Shown: positions 12,953 to 22,626 of the stretch, piece after piece
Position numbering within the stretch: the first letter of the stretch is position 1
Layout of the letters: each line of letters begins with the position of its first letter
DNA from: Bacillota bacterium
GTDB lineage: Bacteria > Bacillota > Clostridia > Peptostreptococcales > Acidaminobacteraceae
DNA length: 64,000 bases
Assembly: GCA_025210655.1 (NCBI GenBank)
Contig: JAOARG010000015.1
Coordinates: forward strand, 1-64,000
Reading direction: 5' to 3'
Made by a program: the position numbers and the translations under genes
The notes under the pieces: model-generated
What the model was told of the DNA's origin: nothing
Databases searched by the model: none
Seen by the model: the letters and a program-made list of their open reading frames with translations, nothing else

Positions 12953-12981
12953 TTGACTTTAATCGAATGCTTGTTTAATAT
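12953..12981 (+). promoter_or_regulatory. Promoter of TetR gene 1 with embedded operator
   Basis: TTGACT (12953-12958), a 17-bp spacer and TAATAT (12976-12981). The operator TAATCGAATGCTTGTTTA (12960-12977) fills the spacer. It belongs to a four-member set in this window with consensus TAAWCGAWYRNTYGWTTA, so TetR autoregulation is likely. Confidence 0.75.
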
Positions 12982-13000
12982 AAGTTTAGGAGGTAGTATT

Positions 13001-13570
13001 TTGAGAAGAAAAGATGAACAAAAATCACAAAATATAAAAAATTCAGTAATAAAATTAACAAAAGATTATGGTTTTCAAGGAATATCAATGTCAAAAATTG
13101 CAAAAGACTGCGGTGTTTCTTCATCAACTATATATACTTATTATGAAAATAAAAGTGAAATGATCCATAGTATATATCATGAACTAAGGGAGAAAAGACA
13201 TAATAATATTTATAATTCTATAAATGAAAACATGAATGCTGAAGAGACTCTTAGGGCTATTTTTATAGATTTTTACAATTACCTTATAGAGAATGAGGAT
13301 GAGTATTACTATATTAGGCAGTTTGCAAGTTGTCAGTGTTTGCATGAAGAGATGCGGGGAAAATTATATAATACAACCATTGATGATATATTAAGTAGGT
13401 TTGTGAAAACTGGAGAGATAGTGGATGTAGATACAACAATAATCCACGCTATGCTTGCTCCTCCAATAGAAAGAATAGCTGAAAATTACTTTGTAGATAA
13501 GAAAAAGCTATCAGATGAAGAAATACACAAAACTTTCGATTTAATATGGAAAGGGATAAGAAATGATTAG
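13001..13570 (+). CDS. TetR family regulator 1
   Basis: 189 residues from a TTG start with AGGAGG 7 bp upstream. The N-terminal helix-turn-helix is F-Q-G-I-S-M-S-K-I-A-K-D-C-G-V-S, then T-I-Y-T-Y-Y-E-N-K-S-E-M-I-H. It is a clear paralogue of the TetR at 17814: the region from G-F-Q-G-I-S-M to I-R/L-R-E-K-R is nearly identical. The ligand-binding part (about 60-189) holds a C-Q-C at about residues 108-110. Its own promoter carries the operator at 12960. Likely a repressor of the nearby pump and reductase genes, sensing a xenobiotic or reactive compound; the ligand is not predictable. Confidence 0.92.
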   Translation: MRRKDEQKSQNIKNSVIKLTKDYGFQGISMSKIAKDCGVSSSTIYTYYENKSEMIHSIYHELREKRHNNIYNSINENMNAEETLRAIFIDFYNYLIENEDEYYYIRQFASCQCLHEEMRGKLYNTTIDDILSRFVKTGEIVDVDTTIIHAMLAPPIERIAENYFVDKKKLSDEEIHKTFDLIWKGIRND

Positions 13571-13640: not shown

Positions 13641-13669
13641 TTGATTATAAACGATTGTTCGATTATAAT
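13641..13669 (+). promoter_or_regulatory. Promoter with TetR operator, upstream of the TetR remnant and MATE gene
   Basis: TTGATT (13641-13646), a 17-bp spacer and a perfect TATAAT (13664-13669). The operator TAAACGATTGTTCGATTA (13648-13665) again occupies the spacer. It should drive the short TetR remnant and, by read-through, the MATE gene. Confidence 0.7.
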
Positions 13670-13692
13670 GTATTGTGGAAGGGGGCATTATA

Positions 13693-13743
13693 TTGAGAAA
13701 GGTAAATAACTTAAGAGTTGGTATAATAAAAAAAATAGTTTGA
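13693..13743 (+). pseudogene. Stump of a third TetR gene
   Basis: After a GGAAGGGGG site, TTG 13693 opens a 16-codon frame, L-R-K-V-N-N-L-R-V-G-I-I-K-K-I-V, then TGA. This matches the first residues of the two TetR paralogues (R-R-K/R-K-K at the start, I-K-K-T-V at the same spacing). With promoter, operator, ribosome site and start all in place, it looks like the 5' end of a deleted third paralogue. Alternatively it is a short leader peptide for the MATE gene. Confidence 0.5.
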
Positions 13744-13754
13744 TAAATCTCTTG

Positions 13755-13795
13755 TTGTAATTAAGTGTAAATATTCTAAGGACATTTAATTACAA
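13755..13795 (+). repeat. 10-bp inverted repeat before the MATE gene
   Basis: TTGTAATTAA (13755-13764) and TTAATTACAA (13786-13795) form a perfect inverted repeat with a 21-base spacer. It could be an attenuator or an operator for the MATE gene 45 bp downstream. Confidence 0.4.
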
Positions 13796-13839: not shown

Positions 13840-15219
13840 ATGAAGTTACAACATGAGATTATCGGAGAAAACAAATTGGCTGTAATGCCGATAAAAAAGC
13901 TTATTTTAAATATATCAATACCTATAATGATATCGATGCTATTACAAGGTCTTTATAATATTATTGATAGTTTGTTTATAGCACGTATTCCTTTAAGTGG
14001 TGAGCAGGCAATAAATGCACTCACTCTTGCATTTCCAATACAGATGTTTATTGTATCTGTATGTGTTGGTACTGGAGTGGGGCTTAATGCTATATTGGCA
14101 AAAACTCTTGGTCAAAAGAATCATATGAAGGCGAATAATGTTGCCTGTAACGGAATTATCATAGGAGTCATTACCTATGTTTTTTTTCTTTTGTTTGGAG
14201 TATTTGCAATTAAAATGTATTTCAATACTCAAACTAACAATCCCTTAATTAGCTCCATGGGAATAAAGTATTTGACTATTATTTCAGTATTTTCATTTGG
14301 TCAAATTGGCCAGCTGATTTTTGAGAGGATGCTTCAAGCTACTGGAAAGAGTTTTTATACAATGATTACTCAGGGCACCGGGGCCATAATCAATGTAATT
14401 TTAGATCCTATATTAATATTTGGATATTTTAAATGTCCAGCACTAGGAGTTGCTGGAGCTGCATATGCTACTGTAATAGGCCAAATATGTGCCTGCGGAT
14501 TAGCTATTTTCTTTAACTTGAAGTTTAATAAAGAGATTGCTATTAATTTTAAAGCCTTTAAAACTAATTTTAAAATCATTAAAGAAATATATAAGATTAG
14601 TTTGCCAGCGATTGTAATGTTGTCCTTAACCTCTATAATGACATATGGAATGAACATTATTCTAGGTATTATTTCTGAAACAGCAGTATCGGCCTATGGA
14701 TTATATTTTAGAATACAGAGCTTTATTTTTATGCCAGTACTTGGATTAAGTGATGGAGTTGCCCCAATAACAGCTTATAATTATGGAGCTCAAAATAAAA
14801 AGCGGATATTAAGTACAATAAAGTTTTCATTGATTTTTTCTACAATCATTATGATTATTGGTTTTATCGTTTTTCAAATTTTTACGAGTCAAATTATTAG
14901 TATTTTTAATGTTTCGGGTGAACTTGAAAAGATAAGTATAATCGCTATGAAGATAATATCCGTAAGTTTTGTTTTTGTAGGAGTAAATTTTATTATGCAA
15001 AGCGTTTTTCAAGCAATTGGAAAGGGCGGACATAGTCTAAGCATATCTCTCCTTAGGGTGATTTCTATTTTAGGAGTTGCAAGTTACTTAATTAAGTTAC
15101 ATGAATCAGTAAAGTATATATGGTGGGCGATACCGGCAGCAGAACTAGTTACTATTGCAGGTACTATATATTTATATAGAATAAACTATATTGAGAAGAT
15201 TGATGGAATAATGAATTGA
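13840..15219 (+). CDS. MATE family multidrug/Na+ antiporter
   Basis: A full-length 459-residue MATE protein with about 12 membrane helices in two homologous halves. The N-terminal signature is I-S-M-L-L-Q-G-L-Y-N-I-I-D-S-L-F-I-A-R, and G-T-G-V-G-L-N-A-I-L-A-K-T-L-G-Q follows. MATE proteins export organic cations and drugs using Na+ or H+ gradients. It begins with ATG after GAAAGG. The promoter with TetR operator lies about 170 bp upstream, past the TetR stump, and suggests derepression by the same ligand as the rest of the island. It ends against a bidirectional terminator shared with the opposing operon. Confidence 0.93.
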   Translation: MKLQHEIIGENKLAVMPIKKLILNISIPIMISMLLQGLYNIIDSLFIARIPLSGEQAINALTLAFPIQMFIVSVCVGTGVGLNAILAKTLGQKNHMKANNVACNGIIIGVITYVFFLLFGVFAIKMYFNTQTNNPLISSMGIKYLTIISVFSFGQIGQLIFERMLQATGKSFYTMITQGTGAIINVILDPILIFGYFKCPALGVAGAAYATVIGQICACGLAIFFNLKFNKEIAINFKAFKTNFKIIKEIYKISLPAIVMLSLTSIMTYGMNIILGIISETAVSAYGLYFRIQSFIFMPVLGLSDGVAPITAYNYGAQNKKRILSTIKFSLIFSTIIMIIGFIVFQIFTSQIISIFNVSGELEKISIIAMKIISVSFVFVGVNFIMQSVFQAIGKGGHSLSISLLRVISILGVASYLIKLHESVKYIWWAIPAAELVTIAGTIYLYRINYIEKIDGIMN

Positions 15220-15251: not shown

Positions 15252-15830
15252 CTATTCTTCTGATCTCCAGTTTTCTGAAAATGCTAATGCTCCAGTACTG
15301 AAGGCTTTACCGTCAAGTTCCATAGGCCATATTGAGCCACTTGCAGCTTTTCCGTTCAGAGTTAACTGCGCACTGGAAGCTGGTATCATTACTGCACTTA
15401 CTCCATAAGGTCTCCCAGGTTCACTAATTTTTTCATCTTGAACAAGTAGTGGATCACTCATTGTTTTCCAGTTCATGATGATTTCATCAAGTTCACTTTG
15501 GATTACTTGTGTCCATGAATTTTTTACATCTCCGTGTCTTGAAAATGCTGCATCAATAATAGGTATTGAATCATCAGATGTTTCAGGATTAAGCATTCCC
15601 TGAACTGTTGATTGCATCCACCTTGTCATGTCGGCATTGTCAGTATATATTCTCCACTTATTGTTGGTAAGTTCGCTCTTTATAAAAAGAGCATGACCAG
15701 ATCCTTTTTCTGAGTAAGTTATTGTCCAGATACTCGCCTCTGTGGTCATCGGACTCCCTTGCTTTTCTGATAACCATATAAATGGATTTTCACCATTTAC
15801 TATTACTTTTCCTTTTTTTACACTTGGCAT
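15252..15830 (-). CDS. Conserved-looking protein of unknown function
   Basis: 192 residues, no signal peptide or membrane helix. I do not recognise the family. It is rich in W and S and is probably a beta-rich cytoplasmic protein (W-T-I-T-Y-S-E-K-G-S-G-H-A-L-F-I-K; F-S-R-H-G-D-V-K-N-S-W). The start has AGGAGG upstream. It is the last gene of a minus-strand run: MBL protein (17639-16833), MBL lipoprotein (16768-15857), then this, 26 bp later. Its role is therefore probably linked to the metallo-hydrolases. Confidence 0.8.
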   Translation of the reverse strand: MPSVKKGKVIVNGENPFIWLSEKQGSPMTTEASIWTITYSEKGSGHALFIKSELTNNKWRIYTDNADMTRWMQSTVQGMLNPETSDDSIPIIDAAFSRHGDVKNSWTQVIQSELDEIIMNWKTMSDPLLVQDEKISEPGRPYGVSAVMIPASSAQLTLNGKAASGSIWPMELDGKAFSTGALAFSENWRSEE

Positions 15831-15856: not shown

Positions 15857-16768
15857 CTAGAATTTAATTGTTTCACCATCTTCAGGAATGATTAATCTAT
15901 CTTCAGATATTCCCGCTTCATTTGCTTTTTCTCTTAGACCTTCCCTTGTAACAGGACAATGGTCAAGGGATTCCATATGAATTGCGATAATTTTAGCTTG
16001 AGGTGCTATATTTGCTATTTCAATTGCGTCTTCAGCATCCATAACAAGTTTGGAAACATTTCCTTGATTATCGATAGGCAGTTGAGCTCCACCAGTATGA
16101 GCTATGATTATATCAGGAGAGAGTTTTTTTATGACTTCTTTTATTTCATCAGTTAATAGTACATCTCCTGTCCATAGAACTGTTGGATATCCATCTGCTT
16201 CAAAAACATATCCAGAACTTTCACCTACTATTGGTAATAAAGCATCTACATCAGCATGAACTCCTTCGAAACGAGTTACTTTAATTCCATCAATTACTAT
16301 GCTATCTTCGATTGCTGTTACGTCATTAAATCCTACACGTCTAATTCCAGCGGCATCAAATGGTTGAATATATATTGGCATATCTTTAGAAATATTTTCA
16401 ATAGCAGCAGAATCGAAATGATCAGAAGGTCCTGCTGGTACATCTTCAGCTGGTATGTGGGTATGGGTTACAAAGATTGTTTCAACATCTGCTAAGATTT
16501 CCTCAACAGAAACAGGTAGATCAGCAGTTGGATTTGAAAGCTCAGCATTATTCAAAAATCCAGGCAGAGACTCTTTTTCTGAAAGCATCGGATCAGTCAG
16601 AAATGTTTTGCCTGCGTAGCTTATTTTCATAGTTGCATTTCTAATAAATTGGATTTCAGTAGCAGTATCCTTTTTAGAATCTACACTGACAACTTTTTCT
16701 TCCTGTGTTGAACAAGCTGCTAAAAGCAGTGATAATAGTAAAGCTGTTACGATTAATATTTTTTTCAT
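15857..16768 (-). CDS. MBL-fold metallo-hydrolase, lipoprotein form
   Basis: 303 residues with a lipoprotein signal (L-L-L-A-A-C, lipidated Cys at 19), so it works outside the membrane. The mature part is a UlaG-like metallo-beta-lactamase fold: T-D-P-M-L near residue 60, T-H-T-H, then an 11-residue insert before D-H-F-D where the family normally has H-x-H-x-D-H, then W-T-G-D, A-H-T-G-G-A and A-I-H-M-E-S-L-D-H-C. It is the paralogue of the next gene, which lacks the signal. It probably hydrolyses an ester, amide or lactone; the substrate is unknown. Confidence 0.88.
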   Translation of the reverse strand: MKKILIVTALLLSLLLAACSTQEEKVVSVDSKKDTATEIQFIRNATMKISYAGKTFLTDPMLSEKESLPGFLNNAELSNPTADLPVSVEEILADVETIFVTHTHIPAEDVPAGPSDHFDSAAIENISKDMPIYIQPFDAAGIRRVGFNDVTAIEDSIVIDGIKVTRFEGVHADVDALLPIVGESSGYVFEADGYPTVLWTGDVLLTDEIKEVIKKLSPDIIIAHTGGAQLPIDNQGNVSKLVMDAEDAIEIANIAPQAKIIAIHMESLDHCPVTREGLREKANEAGISEDRLIIPEDGETIKF

Positions 16769-16832
16769 AATATATTCTCCTATGTTTTAATTTTTTTGTA
16801 TTGACGATGTGTATCTGTTGTTAGGTATGCAC

Positions 16833-17639
16833 TTATAATGATATTTCCTCTCCATCATCTGGTATAAATAGTCGGTCTTTTGGAATACCGGCAATTTTTG
16901 ATTTCTCTGAAAGTTCTTGTCTAGTTATTGGACAATGATCTAAAGCCTCCATATGAATAGACACTATTTTTGATTTAGGTACTAGTTGTGCAATTTTTAT
17001 TGTATCATCAGCATCCATTACTAATTTCACCACATTACCTTCTGCATCTATAGGCATTTGTGCTCCGCCAGAGTGGGTAATGATGATGTCTGGAGTGTAT
17101 TTTTCAATAGTTGCTAAAACTTCATTAGTAATGATAGTATCTCCAGTCCAGAGAATTGTTGGATAGCCATCAGCCTCAAAGACAAATCCTGAAACATCTC
17201 CAACCATTGGTAAAAAGTCTTCTATATCTGTGTGAAGACCATCAAATCTTGTAATTTTAATATTGTCGACTGTAATACTATCTTCAATTTCATGAACATT
17301 ATTAAATCCTACAGCTCTTACTCCTTCAGCATCGCAAGCTTGGATATAAATAGGCATGCTTTTATCAATTTCTTTTATAGCTGTAGCATCAAAATGATCA
17401 GAAGGACCTCCTTTGCCATCTGCTGGGATATGACTGTGGGAAACTAAAATGCAGTCTACACCATCCATAATTTCGTCAATACTCATAGGCAATGGAGCAG
17501 TAGGATTTACTAATTGATCTCTATATAAAAATCCTGTATAAGCTCCTTTAGATGCAAGCATTGGGTCTGTTAAGAAAGTTTTTCCTCCATAGTTTATTTT
17601 CATTGTCGCATTTCTAATGTACTGAATCTTTGTACTCAT
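16833..17639 (-). CDS. MBL-fold metallo-hydrolase, cytoplasmic form
   Basis: 268 residues, a close paralogue of the lipoprotein encoded downstream but without a signal peptide. Motifs: T-D-P-M-L-A, S-H-S-H followed ten residues later by D-H-F-D, L-W-T-G-D-T, I-T-H-S-G-G-A-Q-M and S-I-H-M-E-A-L-D-H-C. The insertion splitting H-x-H from D-H is shared by both copies. First gene of the minus-strand operon and divergent from TetR gene 2; the 174-bp gap holds the TetR operator at 17773, which may also control this side. A cytoplasmic and an exported form suggest the same compound is handled on both sides of the membrane. Confidence 0.88.
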   Translation of the reverse strand: MSTKIQYIRNATMKINYGGKTFLTDPMLASKGAYTGFLYRDQLVNPTAPLPMSIDEIMDGVDCILVSHSHIPADGKGGPSDHFDATAIKEIDKSMPIYIQACDAEGVRAVGFNNVHEIEDSITVDNIKITRFDGLHTDIEDFLPMVGDVSGFVFEADGYPTILWTGDTIITNEVLATIEKYTPDIIITHSGGAQMPIDAEGNVVKLVMDADDTIKIAQLVPKSKIVSIHMEALDHCPITRQELSEKSKIAGIPKDRLFIPDDGEEISL

Positions 17640-17765
17640 GATTATTCTCCTTTATGTTTATTCGTTTTGTGTTAAGGCCTTGTAAACAAAATATCATCTG
17701 GAAAAACGAAAGTAAATTACCCACTTTTTTGTGGGTATGTATTTTTTAAAAAAGAAAATGTCTTC

Positions 17766-17794
17766 TTGACAATAACCGAACGGTCGTTTATTAT
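17766..17794 (+). promoter_or_regulatory. Promoter of TetR gene 2 with embedded operator
   Basis: TTGACA (17766-17771), exactly 17 bp, TATTAT (17789-17794). The operator TAACCGAACGGTCGTTTA (17773-17790) fills the spacer. Same design as at 12953 and 13641. Confidence 0.8.
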
Positions 17795-17813
17795 AGAAGG
17801 TGAGGAGAGACTT

Positions 17814-18386
17814 ATGAGAAAAAAAAGTGTCGAAAAAGAAGAGAAAATAAAAAAAACTGTGATCAAGTTAACAAGGGAGTTTGGTTTTCAAGGAATATCT
17901 ATGTCAAAGATTGCAAATGAATGCGGAATATCACCTTCTAGTATTTATACTTACTATAATAGTAAGAGTGAGATGATTCATAGTATTTATCATGAAATCA
18001 GAGAAAAAAGATTCAGAGATATAGTTGAGCAAGTAGACTCTTCTATTGTAGAGAAGGTTACTCTTTACGAGATATTTAGAGGATACTACTTTTATCTTAT
18101 AGGTAATGAAGATGAATATTACTTTATAAAGCAGTTTTCTAGTTGCCCTTGTCTAATTGAAGAAATAAAACTTAAGAAGTATGAAATATCTGAAAGTAGT
18201 GTAATTGATAAATTTATTAAGGATAAGAAAATTATCGATTTTGATAAAGGAATACTTCATTCTCTTTTGGCATCACCAATAGAGAGAATGGCTGAAAATT
18301 ATTATATACATGGTACCTTGTTGAATGAAAAAGAAGTGAAATTCACTTTTGACCTGATCTGGAAGGGAATATGTAATAATAGCTAA
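17814..18386 (+). CDS. TetR family regulator 2
   Basis: 190 residues. The helix-turn-helix is G-F-Q-G-I-S-M-S-K-I-A-N-E-C-G-I-S, then S-I-Y-T-Y-Y-N-S-K-S-E-M-I-H. It is a paralogue of TetR 1, with C-P-C where that has C-Q-C; paired Cys in the ligand domain make thiol or redox sensing possible. ATG 17814 follows GAGGAG. The longer in-frame extension from 17766 would translate the promoter and is rejected. Autoregulated through the operator in its promoter and positioned to control the reductase operon 75 bp downstream. Confidence 0.92.
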   Translation: MRKKSVEKEEKIKKTVIKLTREFGFQGISMSKIANECGISPSSIYTYYNSKSEMIHSIYHEIREKRFRDIVEQVDSSIVEKVTLYEIFRGYYFYLIGNEDEYYFIKQFSSCPCLIEEIKLKKYEISESSVIDKFIKDKKIIDFDKGILHSLLASPIERMAENYYIHGTLLNEKEVKFTFDLIWKGICNNS

Positions 18387-18428: not shown

Positions 18429-18446
18429 TAAACGAACATTCGATTA
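18429..18446 (+). promoter_or_regulatory. TetR operator before the reductase operon
   Basis: TAAACGAACATTCGATTA, the most symmetrical of the four operators, ends 5 bp before the AGGAGG ribosome site of the Old Yellow Enzyme gene. Placed in the leader, it would block an approaching polymerase or a promoter with -10 near TATATT (18424-18429). Confidence 0.7.
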
Positions 18447-19540: not shown

Positions 19541-19565
19541 AAAATGAAATGAAGGGAGTTTGATT

Positions 19566-20198
19566 ATGATTACAGAATCATTAGAAGCTTTAAGAAACAA
19601 TTTTTATGATAACGCTCCAAAAGAAATTATTCAAACAATTGAAAACCATTTTGCAGAGTTAGTAGAGGATAAATTAGTTGAAAATGCACTGAAAGTTGGT
19701 GATTTAATGCCAGAATTTGAACTAAGAAACTCTATAGGTGAAGTTTTATCATCTAAAACTTTACTAAGTGAGGGACCAATAGTATTAAATTTTTATAGAG
19801 GGGCTTGGTGACCTTTTTGTAATTTAGAGCTTGGAGGTTACCAAGACATATTGAAAGATATTCACAAAAAAGGAGCACAGTTAGTTGCAATATCACCAGA
19901 ACTACCAGATGAGTCCTTATCCTTGCAAGAAAAAATGGATTTAGATTTTGAAGTACTCACAGATTTGAACAATGATTTTTCTAAAAAGTTAGGAATTGCT
20001 TTTTCTATGAAGGAAGATTTAATTGAACTATATAAGCATTTTGGAATTGACTTAGTTGAAAAACATGGGAATGAGGACTATGTAATGCCTGTTCCAGCAA
20101 CATTTGTAGTTAATAGAGATGGGAGATTAGTCCTTTCACATATTGGTATCGATTATACAAAGAGGATGGAACCAAAGGAAGTTTTAAAGTATTTGTAG
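19566..20198 (+). CDS. prxU: Selenocysteine-containing peroxiredoxin-like protein (UGA decoded as Sec)
   Basis: One 210-residue gene with an in-frame TGA at 19809-19811 (residue 82) read as selenocysteine. Sequence before it ends N-F-Y-R-G-A-W; directly after, in the same frame, come P-F-C-N-L-E-L. Cys-containing homologues have R-G-x-W-C-P-Y-C-N at this point, so Sec replaces the peroxidatic Cys in a U-x-x-C motif with resolving C85. The thioredoxin fold continues through A-I-S-P-E and V-P-A-T-F-V-V-N. It reduces H2O2 or organic peroxides using a thiol partner. Sec in the UxxC position is established for PrxU of Eubacterium acidaminophilum. ATG 19566 follows GAAGGGAG. A standard gene caller would split this into two ORFs. 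Sec-insertion genes (selABCD) are not in the window. Confidence 0.92.
19804..19845 (+). promoter_or_regulatory. Candidate bacterial SECIS hairpin at the Sec codon
   Basis: CTTGGTGACC (19804-19813), which contains the TGA, pairs with GGTTACCAAG (19836-19845) over ten positions with one G-T pair; the loop is 22 bases. Bacterial SECIS elements lie at or directly after the UGA, as here, and recruit SelB. The apical SelB-contact bases cannot be assigned by eye. Confidence 0.65.
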
Positions 20199-20224: not shown

Positions 20225-22150
20225 ATGTTAAGGAAAATTTTTGAACCTATTAAAATAGGTTCATTAGATATAAAAAATAGACTTGTTGTACCACCTATGG
20301 TAGTTAATTATGTAAATGAAGATGGAAGAGCTAATGAAAGATTTATATCTTATTTAGAAGAAAAGGCTAAGGGTGGTTGGGGGCTTATTATACCAGAAAA
20401 TTATGCAATTTCCCCTGAAGCAAGAGGCTTCGATTGTTTGCCGGGATTATGGAATGATGAACAAATTGATAGCCATAGACTATTAACAGATAGGCTTCAT
20501 AAACATGGAAGTAAAGTTTTTGTTCAATTAAATCACGCAGGAAGACAAACATCGAGACAAATAACTGGTGTTCAATCAGTTGCACCATCAGCAATTCCAG
20601 ATCCAGTTGTTGGTGAAATGCCTAGAATGTTGGATGAAGAAGAAATAAAAGAAATAATAGAAATGTTTGGAGATGCAGCACTAAGAGCAAAGAAGGCTGG
20701 CTTTGATGGTATAGAAGTTCATGGTTGCCATGGCTACTTGATAAATCAATTTATGTCTCCTTTTTCAAACAAGAGAAATGATAAATATGGTGGAAGTATT
20801 GAAAATAGAGCACGTTTTGCAGTTGAGATCATAAATGATATTAAGAGAAAAACAGGTGAAGATTATCCAATAATTTATAGGATGACAGTAAATGAATTCG
20901 TACCTGGAGGCCTTAATACTAATGACAGTAAGGTAATAGCTATGATACTTGAAGAAGCAGGTGTAGACGCAATCCATTGTACAAATGGTATATATGCAAG
21001 TAAAGAATATATAATTCCCCCTGCTGCAGTTGAACATGGTTGGAGTTCTGATATTACTGCTGAAATAAAGAGTGTTGTATCTATACCTGTTATTACTGTG
21101 GGTAGGATAAATAATCCAATGACAGCTGAGAGTATTTTACTATCAGGCAAGGCAGACTTAATTGCCATGGGAAGAGCTTCTTTGGCTGACCCCCATATGC
21201 CTAATAAAGCTAAAGATGGTGACTTCGAAGAGATAATAAAATGTATAGGATGTCTTCAAGGTTGTTCCGGTAGAAATTCCAAGCAGTTACCAGTAAAGTG
21301 TCTTGTTAATCCTATGACTGGTAACGAGAGTATTTATGATTTAGGGAAATCTGTACTAAGGAAAAAAGTACTAATAGCAGGTGGTGGAATTGCAGGCATG
21401 GAGGCAGCTATTGTTGCAGCAAAGAGAGGTCACTATGTACATTTATTCGAAAAATCCAACCTACTTGGTGGGCAATGGCTTATTGCATCAGTACCTCCTT
21501 ATAAGGAAGAACTGAGTAGTCTTATAAACTGGCAAAAACATCAACTTACACAACTAGGTGTAAAAGTGTATTTGAATAAAACACTGACTAGAGATATTGT
21601 AGATTTCGAGAAGCCAGATGGGGTAATAATAGCTACAGGATCTGAAGCAAAAAAGCTAAACTTTATGTCTATTAGAGGTGATTTAGTGATATCAGCAAAC
21701 CGAATTCTCAGTGGCGAGGTTGAAACTGGTCAAAATATACTTGTTATTGGTGGAGGATCTATAGGTGTTGAGACCGCGGTATATCTTGCAGCTCATGATA
21801 AAAAAGTTACTATTATTGAAGCTGGAGATGATTTGATGAGGGATGGTGAATCTGTTGTAAATCATTATCTTTTTAAGGAACTAATAAAGTTTGATATACA
21901 GGTGCTAAAAAATGCTCATGTTAAAACTATATCTGAAAATAAAGTAGTAACATATGACATAGACGGAAATATGAAGAGAATGAAAAACATAGATACTATT
22001 ATTTCTGCAATTGGTTCGATGTCAGTTAATAATTTGTCAAAAGAACTTAAGAACATTGAAGCTGATGTAATTATAGTAGGTGATGCTCTCAAGGTCAGAA
22101 AAGGACTTGAGGCTGTTGATGAAGGTTTTAAGGCAGGTTTATTAATATAA
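20225..22150 (+). CDS. NADH:flavin oxidoreductase / 2,4-dienoyl-CoA reductase family, Fe-S flavoprotein
   Basis: 641 residues with the full three-part architecture. An FMN-binding Old Yellow Enzyme barrel (about 1-330, with G-F-D-G-I-E-V-H-G-C-H-G-Y-L-I-N-Q-F) is followed by a 4Fe-4S site C340-x2-C343-x3-C347-x11-C359 and an FAD/NAD(P)H domain (about 380-641, with A-G-G-G-I-A-G-M-E-A and G-G-G-S-I-G-V-E-T). Electrons pass NAD(P)H to FAD, Fe-S, FMN and then an alpha,beta-unsaturated substrate. Dienoyl-CoA, enoate and bile-acid reductases share this layout, so the substrate is open. ATG 20225 is used because AAGGTG precedes it; GTG 20216 is an alternative. Confidence 0.93.
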   Translation: MLRKIFEPIKIGSLDIKNRLVVPPMVVNYVNEDGRANERFISYLEEKAKGGWGLIIPENYAISPEARGFDCLPGLWNDEQIDSHRLLTDRLHKHGSKVFVQLNHAGRQTSRQITGVQSVAPSAIPDPVVGEMPRMLDEEEIKEIIEMFGDAALRAKKAGFDGIEVHGCHGYLINQFMSPFSNKRNDKYGGSIENRARFAVEIINDIKRKTGEDYPIIYRMTVNEFVPGGLNTNDSKVIAMILEEAGVDAIHCTNGIYASKEYIIPPAAVEHGWSSDITAEIKSVVSIPVITVGRINNPMTAESILLSGKADLIAMGRASLADPHMPNKAKDGDFEEIIKCIGCLQGCSGRNSKQLPVKCLVNPMTGNESIYDLGKSVLRKKVLIAGGGIAGMEAAIVAAKRGHYVHLFEKSNLLGGQWLIASVPPYKEELSSLINWQKHQLTQLGVKVYLNKTLTRDIVDFEKPDGVIIATGSEAKKLNFMSIRGDLVISANRILSGEVETGQNILVIGGGSIGVETAVYLAAHDKKVTIIEAGDDLMRDGESVVNHYLFKELIKFDIQVLKNAHVKTISENKVVTYDIDGNMKRMKNIDTIISAIGSMSVNNLSKELKNIEADVIIVGDALKVRKGLEAVDEGFKAGLLI

Positions 22151-22175: not shown

Positions 22176-22577
22176 ATGACAAAAGGAACACATACAAATG
22201 AGGCGATTAGGGAGGCTATGGATCATCTGATTGATCGTGCAACTAATTTTGATATTGAAGCACTAAATACAATTTATCACGATGACTTTCATACAACACT
22301 TGTGATGCCTGATGATACAGTTGTGACATACAATAAAGAGGAGTTTAAAACTCATTTTGCAAAACAAGCTAAAGAAGGAAAGACACAACTTAACACATGG
22401 GCTAAGTGGCACGATTTTCATGTTTTAGGTGATAGTGCTGTTTGTGTTCTAACTAGAAAACATAGTGGAATGAATGGGGAAGAAATGTATCTATTATGTA
22501 ATATTGAACTTCGTTATGAAGATAATCGCTGGCAAGTAATTCGTGAGGCAATATATCTTCGTCCGTTGGATAATTAA
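22176..22577 (+). CDS. NTF2-like (SnoaL/DUF4440-type) protein
   Basis: 133 residues forming a cone-shaped NTF2-like fold: a helical start with A-M-D-H-L-I-D-R-A-T-N-F-D-I-E-A-L-N-T-I-Y-like spacing, then beta strands ending R-W-Q-V-I-R-E-A. Members include small dehydratases, isomerases and ligand carriers; the role here cannot be set by sequence. AAAGGAGG precedes ATG, 25 bp after the long reductase, so it is the last gene of the operon and may act on the product or substrate of the reductases. Confidence 0.75.
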   Translation: MTKGTHTNEAIREAMDHLIDRATNFDIEALNTIYHDDFHTTLVMPDDTVVTYNKEEFKTHFAKQAKEGKTQLNTWAKWHDFHVLGDSAVCVLTRKHSGMNGEEMYLLCNIELRYEDNRWQVIREAIYLRPLDN

Positions 22578-22590
22578 AACTTTATCGTAG

Positions 22591-22620
22591 TAATGGGGCA
22601 GTCTAATGACTGCCCCATTA
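22591..22620. terminator. Bidirectional terminator GGGGCAGTC type, copy 2
   Basis: A perfect 13-bp stem (22591-22603 with 22608-22620) around TAAT, between the convergent NTF2-like and IclR genes. Same core sequence as at 15221 and 43924. Confidence 0.88.
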
Positions 22621-22626
22621 TTAATC

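Follow-up and report, generated by a model that had tools for sequence, protein, structure and literature searches.

Between positions 19566 and 20198 of the window analyzed here (the whole 64,000-nucleotide stretch), a mechanical ORF caller reports two open reading frames, 19560-19811 and 19851-20198. Are these the halves of a broken gene or a single gene for a selenoprotein and, if the latter, what might that protein do among its neighbors? On the forward strand, 19566-20198 constitutes one frame of 210 sense codons running from an ATG at 19566 to a TAG ending at 20198, and its sole interruption is a TGA at codon 82 (19809-19811), followed by a C (UGAC). Read as selenocysteine (Sec), this codon yields the motif FYRGAWUPFC, of the UxxC type, in a gene that stop-to-stop gene callers would annotate as two fragments.

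Conservation of the TGA codon and selenocysteine decoding

The preliminary description had proposed an in-frame TGA within a UxxC motif, and comparison with homologs bears out both elements. Three homologous genes carry TGA at the same codon (G031:C64, 62% identity; L033, 53%; G031:C105, 41%), and TGC or TGT occupies it in 82 Cys homologs; in the alignment, U82 matches the invariant first Cys of these CxxC proteins and Cys85 is itself invariant. Genome G031 belongs to another genus, its 41%-identical gene being a paralog separate from the 62%-identical one, and L033 is a gene from a Bacillota metagenome-assembled genome. A Binatota gene (L087; 39% identity) also presents the TGA, and WCPYC or WCPFC is found in the remaining 78 of 80 loci. 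The gene is scarce near the organism: counting its own genome in each case, relatives were detected in 6 of 41 genomes of the family (E <= 1e-10), in 1 of 391 genomes of the class (1e-25) and in 3 of 398 at the phylum level (1e-20). The scan of genome contigs relied on a single peptide pattern containing a Cys codon and hence under-counts Sec homologs. In viral contigs, the DNA pattern for FYRGxWUP(F/Y)C had no match.

The same genome encodes tRNA-Sec (selC; 75 bits, above cut-off), SelA (584 bits) and SelB (386 bits), the latter two adjacent on contig C82, as well as SelD (400 bits). The presence of all four components excludes a genome devoid of Sec machinery, the circumstance that the preliminary description had held against a selenoprotein; tRNA-Sec is present in G031 as well. 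The SelD gene (L032; G000:C80:361-1287) contains an in-frame TGA of its own in an SGUxxK motif (SGUAAK) and, as written, is a selenoprotein too, so that it serves well as a positive control for the decoding of Sec.

An in-frame stop and two reported ORFs are also what a pseudogene or a sequencing error would produce, with a TGC to TGA change leaving only an 81-residue fragment. We rejected this reading, which we hold to be highly improbable, on the grounds that TGA is kept in three further genes from independent assemblies; against it stand also the complete Sec machinery of the genome and the remainder of the frame, which is intact and retains its conserved residues. The conserved TGA and the full machinery thus agree with the earlier call of a selenocysteine gene rather than a broken one. 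The apparent two-piece gene is very probably a single working gene encoding a Sec-containing, thioredoxin-like relative of the peroxiredoxins; we consider the assignment of codon 82 as Sec highly probable, and we infer that Sec is incorporated at this residue in the cell.

A putative SECIS-like hairpin, CTTGG-AGGTTA-CCAAG, starts 21 nt past the first base of the UGA. The bSECIS model specifies a stem of 4-16 bp, a loop of 3-9 nt with a G in the first two positions, a spacing of 16-37 nt and a minimum free energy <= -7.5 (PMC13188914). The stem (5 bp), loop (AGGTTA) and spacing (23 nt) of the window hairpin lie within these limits, while its folding energy (-6.1 in a constrained fold; range -5.4 to -7.1 kcal/mol) does not clearly reach the threshold, and a competing fold at -8.3 in the window takes in the UGA. 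Random coding given the peptide and codon usage yields the stem in about 24-29% of cases. All 5 pairs are nonetheless formed in 4 of 4 clostridial Sec genes, compared with at most 3 of 5 in all 82 Cys homologs, and the stem of the G031 paralog (CTTGA/TCAAG) differs by one compensatory change. Where residues are unchanged between the window and G031, codons 84-95 are identical in 11 of 11 cases, against 62 of 120 outside codons 83-95. Furthermore, those clostridial Sec genes encode GG, GS or DS at residues 90-91, where most Cys homologs read R/K-A, as if the peptide had yielded to an RNA loop. The hairpin is best described as putative and weak, and as partly explained by the encoded peptide. 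The Binatota gene, with its TGA at the same codon, forms just 2 of the 5 pairs and has a different hairpin. Not every member of the protein family thus shares the stem, and the difference suggests that the signal for Sec insertion in this gene is of separate origin or has diverged.

A thioredoxin-like active site on a peroxiredoxin fold

The protein contains a PF00578 (AhpC-TSA) domain (86 bits against a cut-off of 26), and its AlphaFold model (51 sequences; pLDDT 94) adopts a peroxiredoxin (Prx) fold that is nearest to AhpE and Bcp4 (Z 19.6, RMSD 1.6-2.1 over 145-151 residues). The preliminary description had placed the TGA exactly where the peroxidatic Cys belongs, and this proved to be wrong. 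In single-sequence and profile alignments to solved Prx chains, Sec82 pairs with the Thr of PxxxTxxC, and it is Cys85 that matches the peroxidatic Cys, so that the TGA lies three residues before that position; Sec at the peroxidatic position was rejected on these two alignments. The position of the Prx-motif Pro is occupied by Arg78, which together with Arg200 is invariant across the 51 sequences of the alignment. MPVPATF is the sequence of the strand bearing the Prx Arg, the Arg position being taken by a cis-Pro-like VPATF motif; we take this segment to resemble the cis-Pro loop of ResA/TlpA-type proteins. Hence, of the canonical motif (PxxxT/SxxC-P and a catalytic Arg), with R78, U82 and C85 aligned, the Pro and Thr are absent.

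Taken together, the alignments indicate that the active site is thioredoxin-like, and that the Sec protein probably combines a Prx fold with the function of a thiol:disulfide oxidoreductase, peroxidase activity being possible but not to be taken for granted. As the preliminary description had stated, selenoproteins with a UxxC motif are already known: the sections of published surveys drawn on here describe UxxC Prx-like forms (Zhang et al. 2005, PMC1088965; Zhang et al. 2006, PMC1794560; a 2026 review, PMC13188914) and place them as thiol:disulfide oxidoreductase-like (PMC1088965, PMC1794560), the Sargasso Sea survey drawing the same distinction between thioredoxin-like UXXC and TXXU (PMC1088965). 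By its sequence, the window protein belongs with these "Prx-like thiol:disulfide oxidoreductase" selenoproteins, with which it shares the PF00578 domain, the thioredoxin-like UxxC, known Cys homologs and bacterial Sec decoding; unlike them, it has Old Yellow Enzyme (OYE) and TetR partners, none being reported in those sections (PMC1088965, PMC1794560, PMC13188914). The WCPYC branch found here may be a subfamily separate from the UxxC representatives of the surveys. With the Sec peroxiredoxin of the Eubacterium acidaminophilum type, the protein has in common a peroxiredoxin fold, an active-site Sec and an origin in anaerobic clostridia, but in that type Sec is the peroxidatic residue (TxxU), whereas in the UxxC form it stands three residues earlier (PMC9312934).

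A true peroxidase, in which Sec82 would attack peroxide as in glutathione peroxidases (UxxT), Cys85 would resolve and the operon would answer peroxides and enones jointly, strikes us as rather unlikely. The fold is that of a peroxiredoxin, Sec favors peroxide reduction, and the invariant Arg78 and Arg200 could activate peroxide. Yet the residue of the Prx motif that aligns with Sec is the Thr rather than the peroxidatic Cys, neither the Pro nor the Arg of a Prx stands in its usual place, and the surveys, in the sections cited above, class UxxC forms with the thiol:disulfide oxidoreductases.

The tetR-led operon and its candidate operators

The Sec gene sits between two OYE-type reductase genes in an operon that begins with a gene encoding a TetR_N domain and reads tetR-OYE1-Prx(Sec)-OYE2-SnoaL; a strong terminator-like hairpin (22588-22623) lies 3' of the last gene (Table 1). 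G031 retains the order tetR-OYE1-Prx(Sec)-SnoaL (54%, 67%, 62% and 86% identity, respectively), with no copy of OYE2 in its operon. The reported placement between two OYEs under a TetR therefore stands in part: an operon with OYE-type reductases exists and its order is kept in a second genus, indicative of a real link, but the two-OYE arrangement is not, G031 having OYE1 only. In L033, the Sec gene lies between a TetR gene and a Flavodoxin_2 quinone-reductase-like gene. When the proteins of the operon, OYE1 and OYE2 among them, were searched by tblastn against the flanks of 80 relatives in the genome contigs, no OYE neighbor was revealed; among the Pfam families counted in 78 adjacent ORFs, the 25 commonest included no OYE, and TetR neighbors numbered only four. 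A general linkage of the family to OYE genes is thus unsupported, the association having been seen in two genomes only.

OYE2 has the two-domain layout and Fe-S Cys motif of the BaiCD, 2,4-dienoyl-CoA reductase and bilirubin reductase OYEs but, unlike them, scores below all equivalog cut-offs; its matches to the BaiCD, bilirubin reductase and mycofactocin OYE models are full length. The OYE1 C-terminus (CIACNKCF-x4-GQxC, kept in G031) presents a shortened version of the two-domain OYE Fe-S Cys motif, the second domain being missing. Two tandem metallo-beta-lactamase-fold paralogs (15857-17639, reverse strand) diverge from the tetR operon and do so in G031 as well (L027, 10833-13820), where a transporter gene lies between them; beside them in the window, a 192-aa ORF (15252-15830, reverse strand) has no Pfam match. 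A perfect 7-bp inverted repeat between the divergent genes (TACCCAC-TTTTTT-GTGGGTA, 17718-17737), also kept in G031, may be either a terminator or another binding site.

Table 1. Features of the selenoprotein operon and of its upstream region in window coordinates.
Feature	Position	Strand	Evidence
One-mismatch operator-like site (fourth site), promoter of paralogous TetR gene	12960..12977		
Paralogous TetR (TetR2)	12998..13570	+	53% identical to TetR1
Candidate operator O3, TAAACGATTGTTCGATTA, upstream of MATE gene	13648..13665		Palindrome match
MATE-family efflux transporter	13840..15219	+	MatE 3.1e-42
Sigma70-type promoter TTGACA-N17-TATTAT of tetR-led operon	17766..17794	+	11/12 matches; same layout in G031
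Candidate operator O1, TAACCGAACGGTCGTTTA, in promoter spacer	17773..17790		Conserved in G031
TetR-family regulator (TetR1; approximate start codon), Cys113/Cys115 (SSCPCL)	17808..18386	+	TetR_N; 52-53% identical to G031 TetR and to second TetR in window
Candidate operator O2, TAAACGAACATTCGATTA, just before OYE1 ribosome-binding site	18429..18446		Same place in G031
OYE1, Old Yellow Enzyme-type flavin oxidoreductase, 359 aa	18461..19540	+	Oxidored_FMN 2.1e-48; 67% identical copy in G031 operon
Predicted Sec-containing peroxiredoxin-like protein (UxxC), 210 residues with TGA read as Sec	19566..20198	+	Pfam AhpC-TSA 2.4e-24, Redoxin 6e-18; AlphaFold model
In-frame TGA, read as Sec82	19809..19811	+	Same-codon TGA in L033 and in both G031 genes; 82 further distinct homologs have Cys
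Putative bacterial SECIS upper stem-loop, CTTGG-AGGTTA-CCAAG	19830..19845	+	Loop begins 23 nt after UGA; fits stem, loop and spacing criteria of bSECIS model, energy not clearly
OYE2, two-domain FadH/BaiCD-like ene-reductase, 640 aa, CxxCxxxC-x11-C motif	20228..22150	+	Oxidored_FMN 8.6e-90 and Pyr_redox_2
SnoaL/DUF4440-like protein, last gene of operon	22176..22577	+	In G031, Prx(Sec) is followed immediately by an 86% identical copy

The TetR operator suggested by the preliminary description has a counterpart in a candidate palindrome, TAAnCGAnnnnTCGnTTA, whose sequence is conserved in G031. Exactly three sites are present in the genome (3.9 Mb), and a single 4.8-kb part of the window contains them all, in the tetR promoter, before OYE1 and upstream of the MATE efflux gene; the palindrome of the tetR promoter, searched with up to 2 mismatches, yields three occurrences in 3.9 Mb, all in the window, and the generalized TAAnCGAnnnnTCGnTTA returns the same three places. 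As a control, the reversed TAAnCGAnnnnTCGnTTA pattern gave at most 1 match per strand. G031 contains just two sites, one within the tetR promoter and the other separating tetR from OYE1, so that tetR is bracketed. These palindromes are good operator candidates, to which we infer that the repressor binds; regulation of the operon by TetR is well supported by sequence, and the MATE gene is possibly part of the same regulon. Furthermore, all three TetR proteins (TetR1, TetR2 and the G031 TetR) share Cys113 and Cys115, which could form a thiol sensor. Two smaller features were noted upstream: a short frame downstream of O3 (13648-13760), starting TTGAGAAAGGTAAATAAC, resembles the start of tetR and is perhaps a remnant, and the TetR2 region (12953-13570) has an operator-like promoter of its own.

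A possible role in electrophile and quinone stress

The closest working analog of this locus is E. coli nemR-nemA-gloA, in which NemR, a TetR-family protein that detects electrophiles and quinones by means of Cys residues, controls the OYE NemA (PMC3739934, PMC7464077). Gene order and sequence reveal the same layout here, with a TetR repressor gene first and an operator-like palindrome at its own promoter, an OYE-type reductase second and a detoxifying enzyme next (PMC3739934, PMC7464077). The third enzyme is a glyoxalase in E. coli and a selenoprotein in the window, where the setting is clostridial and two candidate operators bracket tetR; the window TetR is likened to NemR by gene order, not by orthology.

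As a whole, the explanation that we favor, with some reserve, is that of a selenoprotein made by the cell's own SelA/SelB/SelC/SelD within a TetR-repressed, nemRA-like electrophile/quinone-stress operon. In this scheme, the UGA would be translated as Sec82 by these four factors, and TetR would repress tetR-OYE1-Prx(Sec)-OYE2-SnoaL until released by an inducer, perhaps a reactive electrophile or quinone sensed via the conserved Cys pair. The OYE enzymes would then reduce activated C=C bonds or quinones, and the Sec82-Cys85 pair would reduce oxidized thiols or selected peroxides via a selenenyl-sulfide intermediate, with the upstream MATE pump possibly co-regulated. A joint response to peroxides and to enones or quinones, as the preliminary description suggested, would be plausible. 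Substrates and inducer are guesses from gene content; the TetR-Prx(Sec)-Flavodoxin_2 order of L033 provides an independent hint of a quinone/electrophile role.

A different view of the same genes, and one that we regard as improbable, is that of a catabolic or respiratory operon in which one particular natural enoate, steroid or tetrapyrrole would be the substrate of the OYEs, and in which the Sec protein would serve as an electron-transfer or maintenance partner rather than as a stress enzyme. OYE2 would then act upon an enone of the steroid, bile-acid or tetrapyrrole type. The full-length, below-cut-off OYE2 matches described above and the SnoaL-like gene at the operon end are consistent with it, and TetR regulators often sense pathway ligands. 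However, the second conserved operon lacks OYE2, one copy of the palindrome precedes an efflux gene, and the Sec gene of L033 has, instead, a quinone-reductase-like neighbor.

Within the open-access literature searched, we found no relevant paper combining a selenoprotein with an Old Yellow Enzyme or ene-reductase, and the operon setting appears to be new there, the selenoprotein family itself being known. Tentatively, and with more doubt than confidence, the stress-operon reading extends to a dedicated selenium-dependent electrophile/quinone defense branch in anaerobic clostridia, in which a Cys-sensing TetR with few local operators would couple ene-reductases to an efflux pump and to thiol repair by a Sec enzyme. 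To our knowledge, most bacterial UxxC Prx-like selenoproteins have no assigned role, and the conserved operon, with its TetR, flavin reductases and sharply local operators, offers a testable physiological setting in which the inducer would lead to the substrate.
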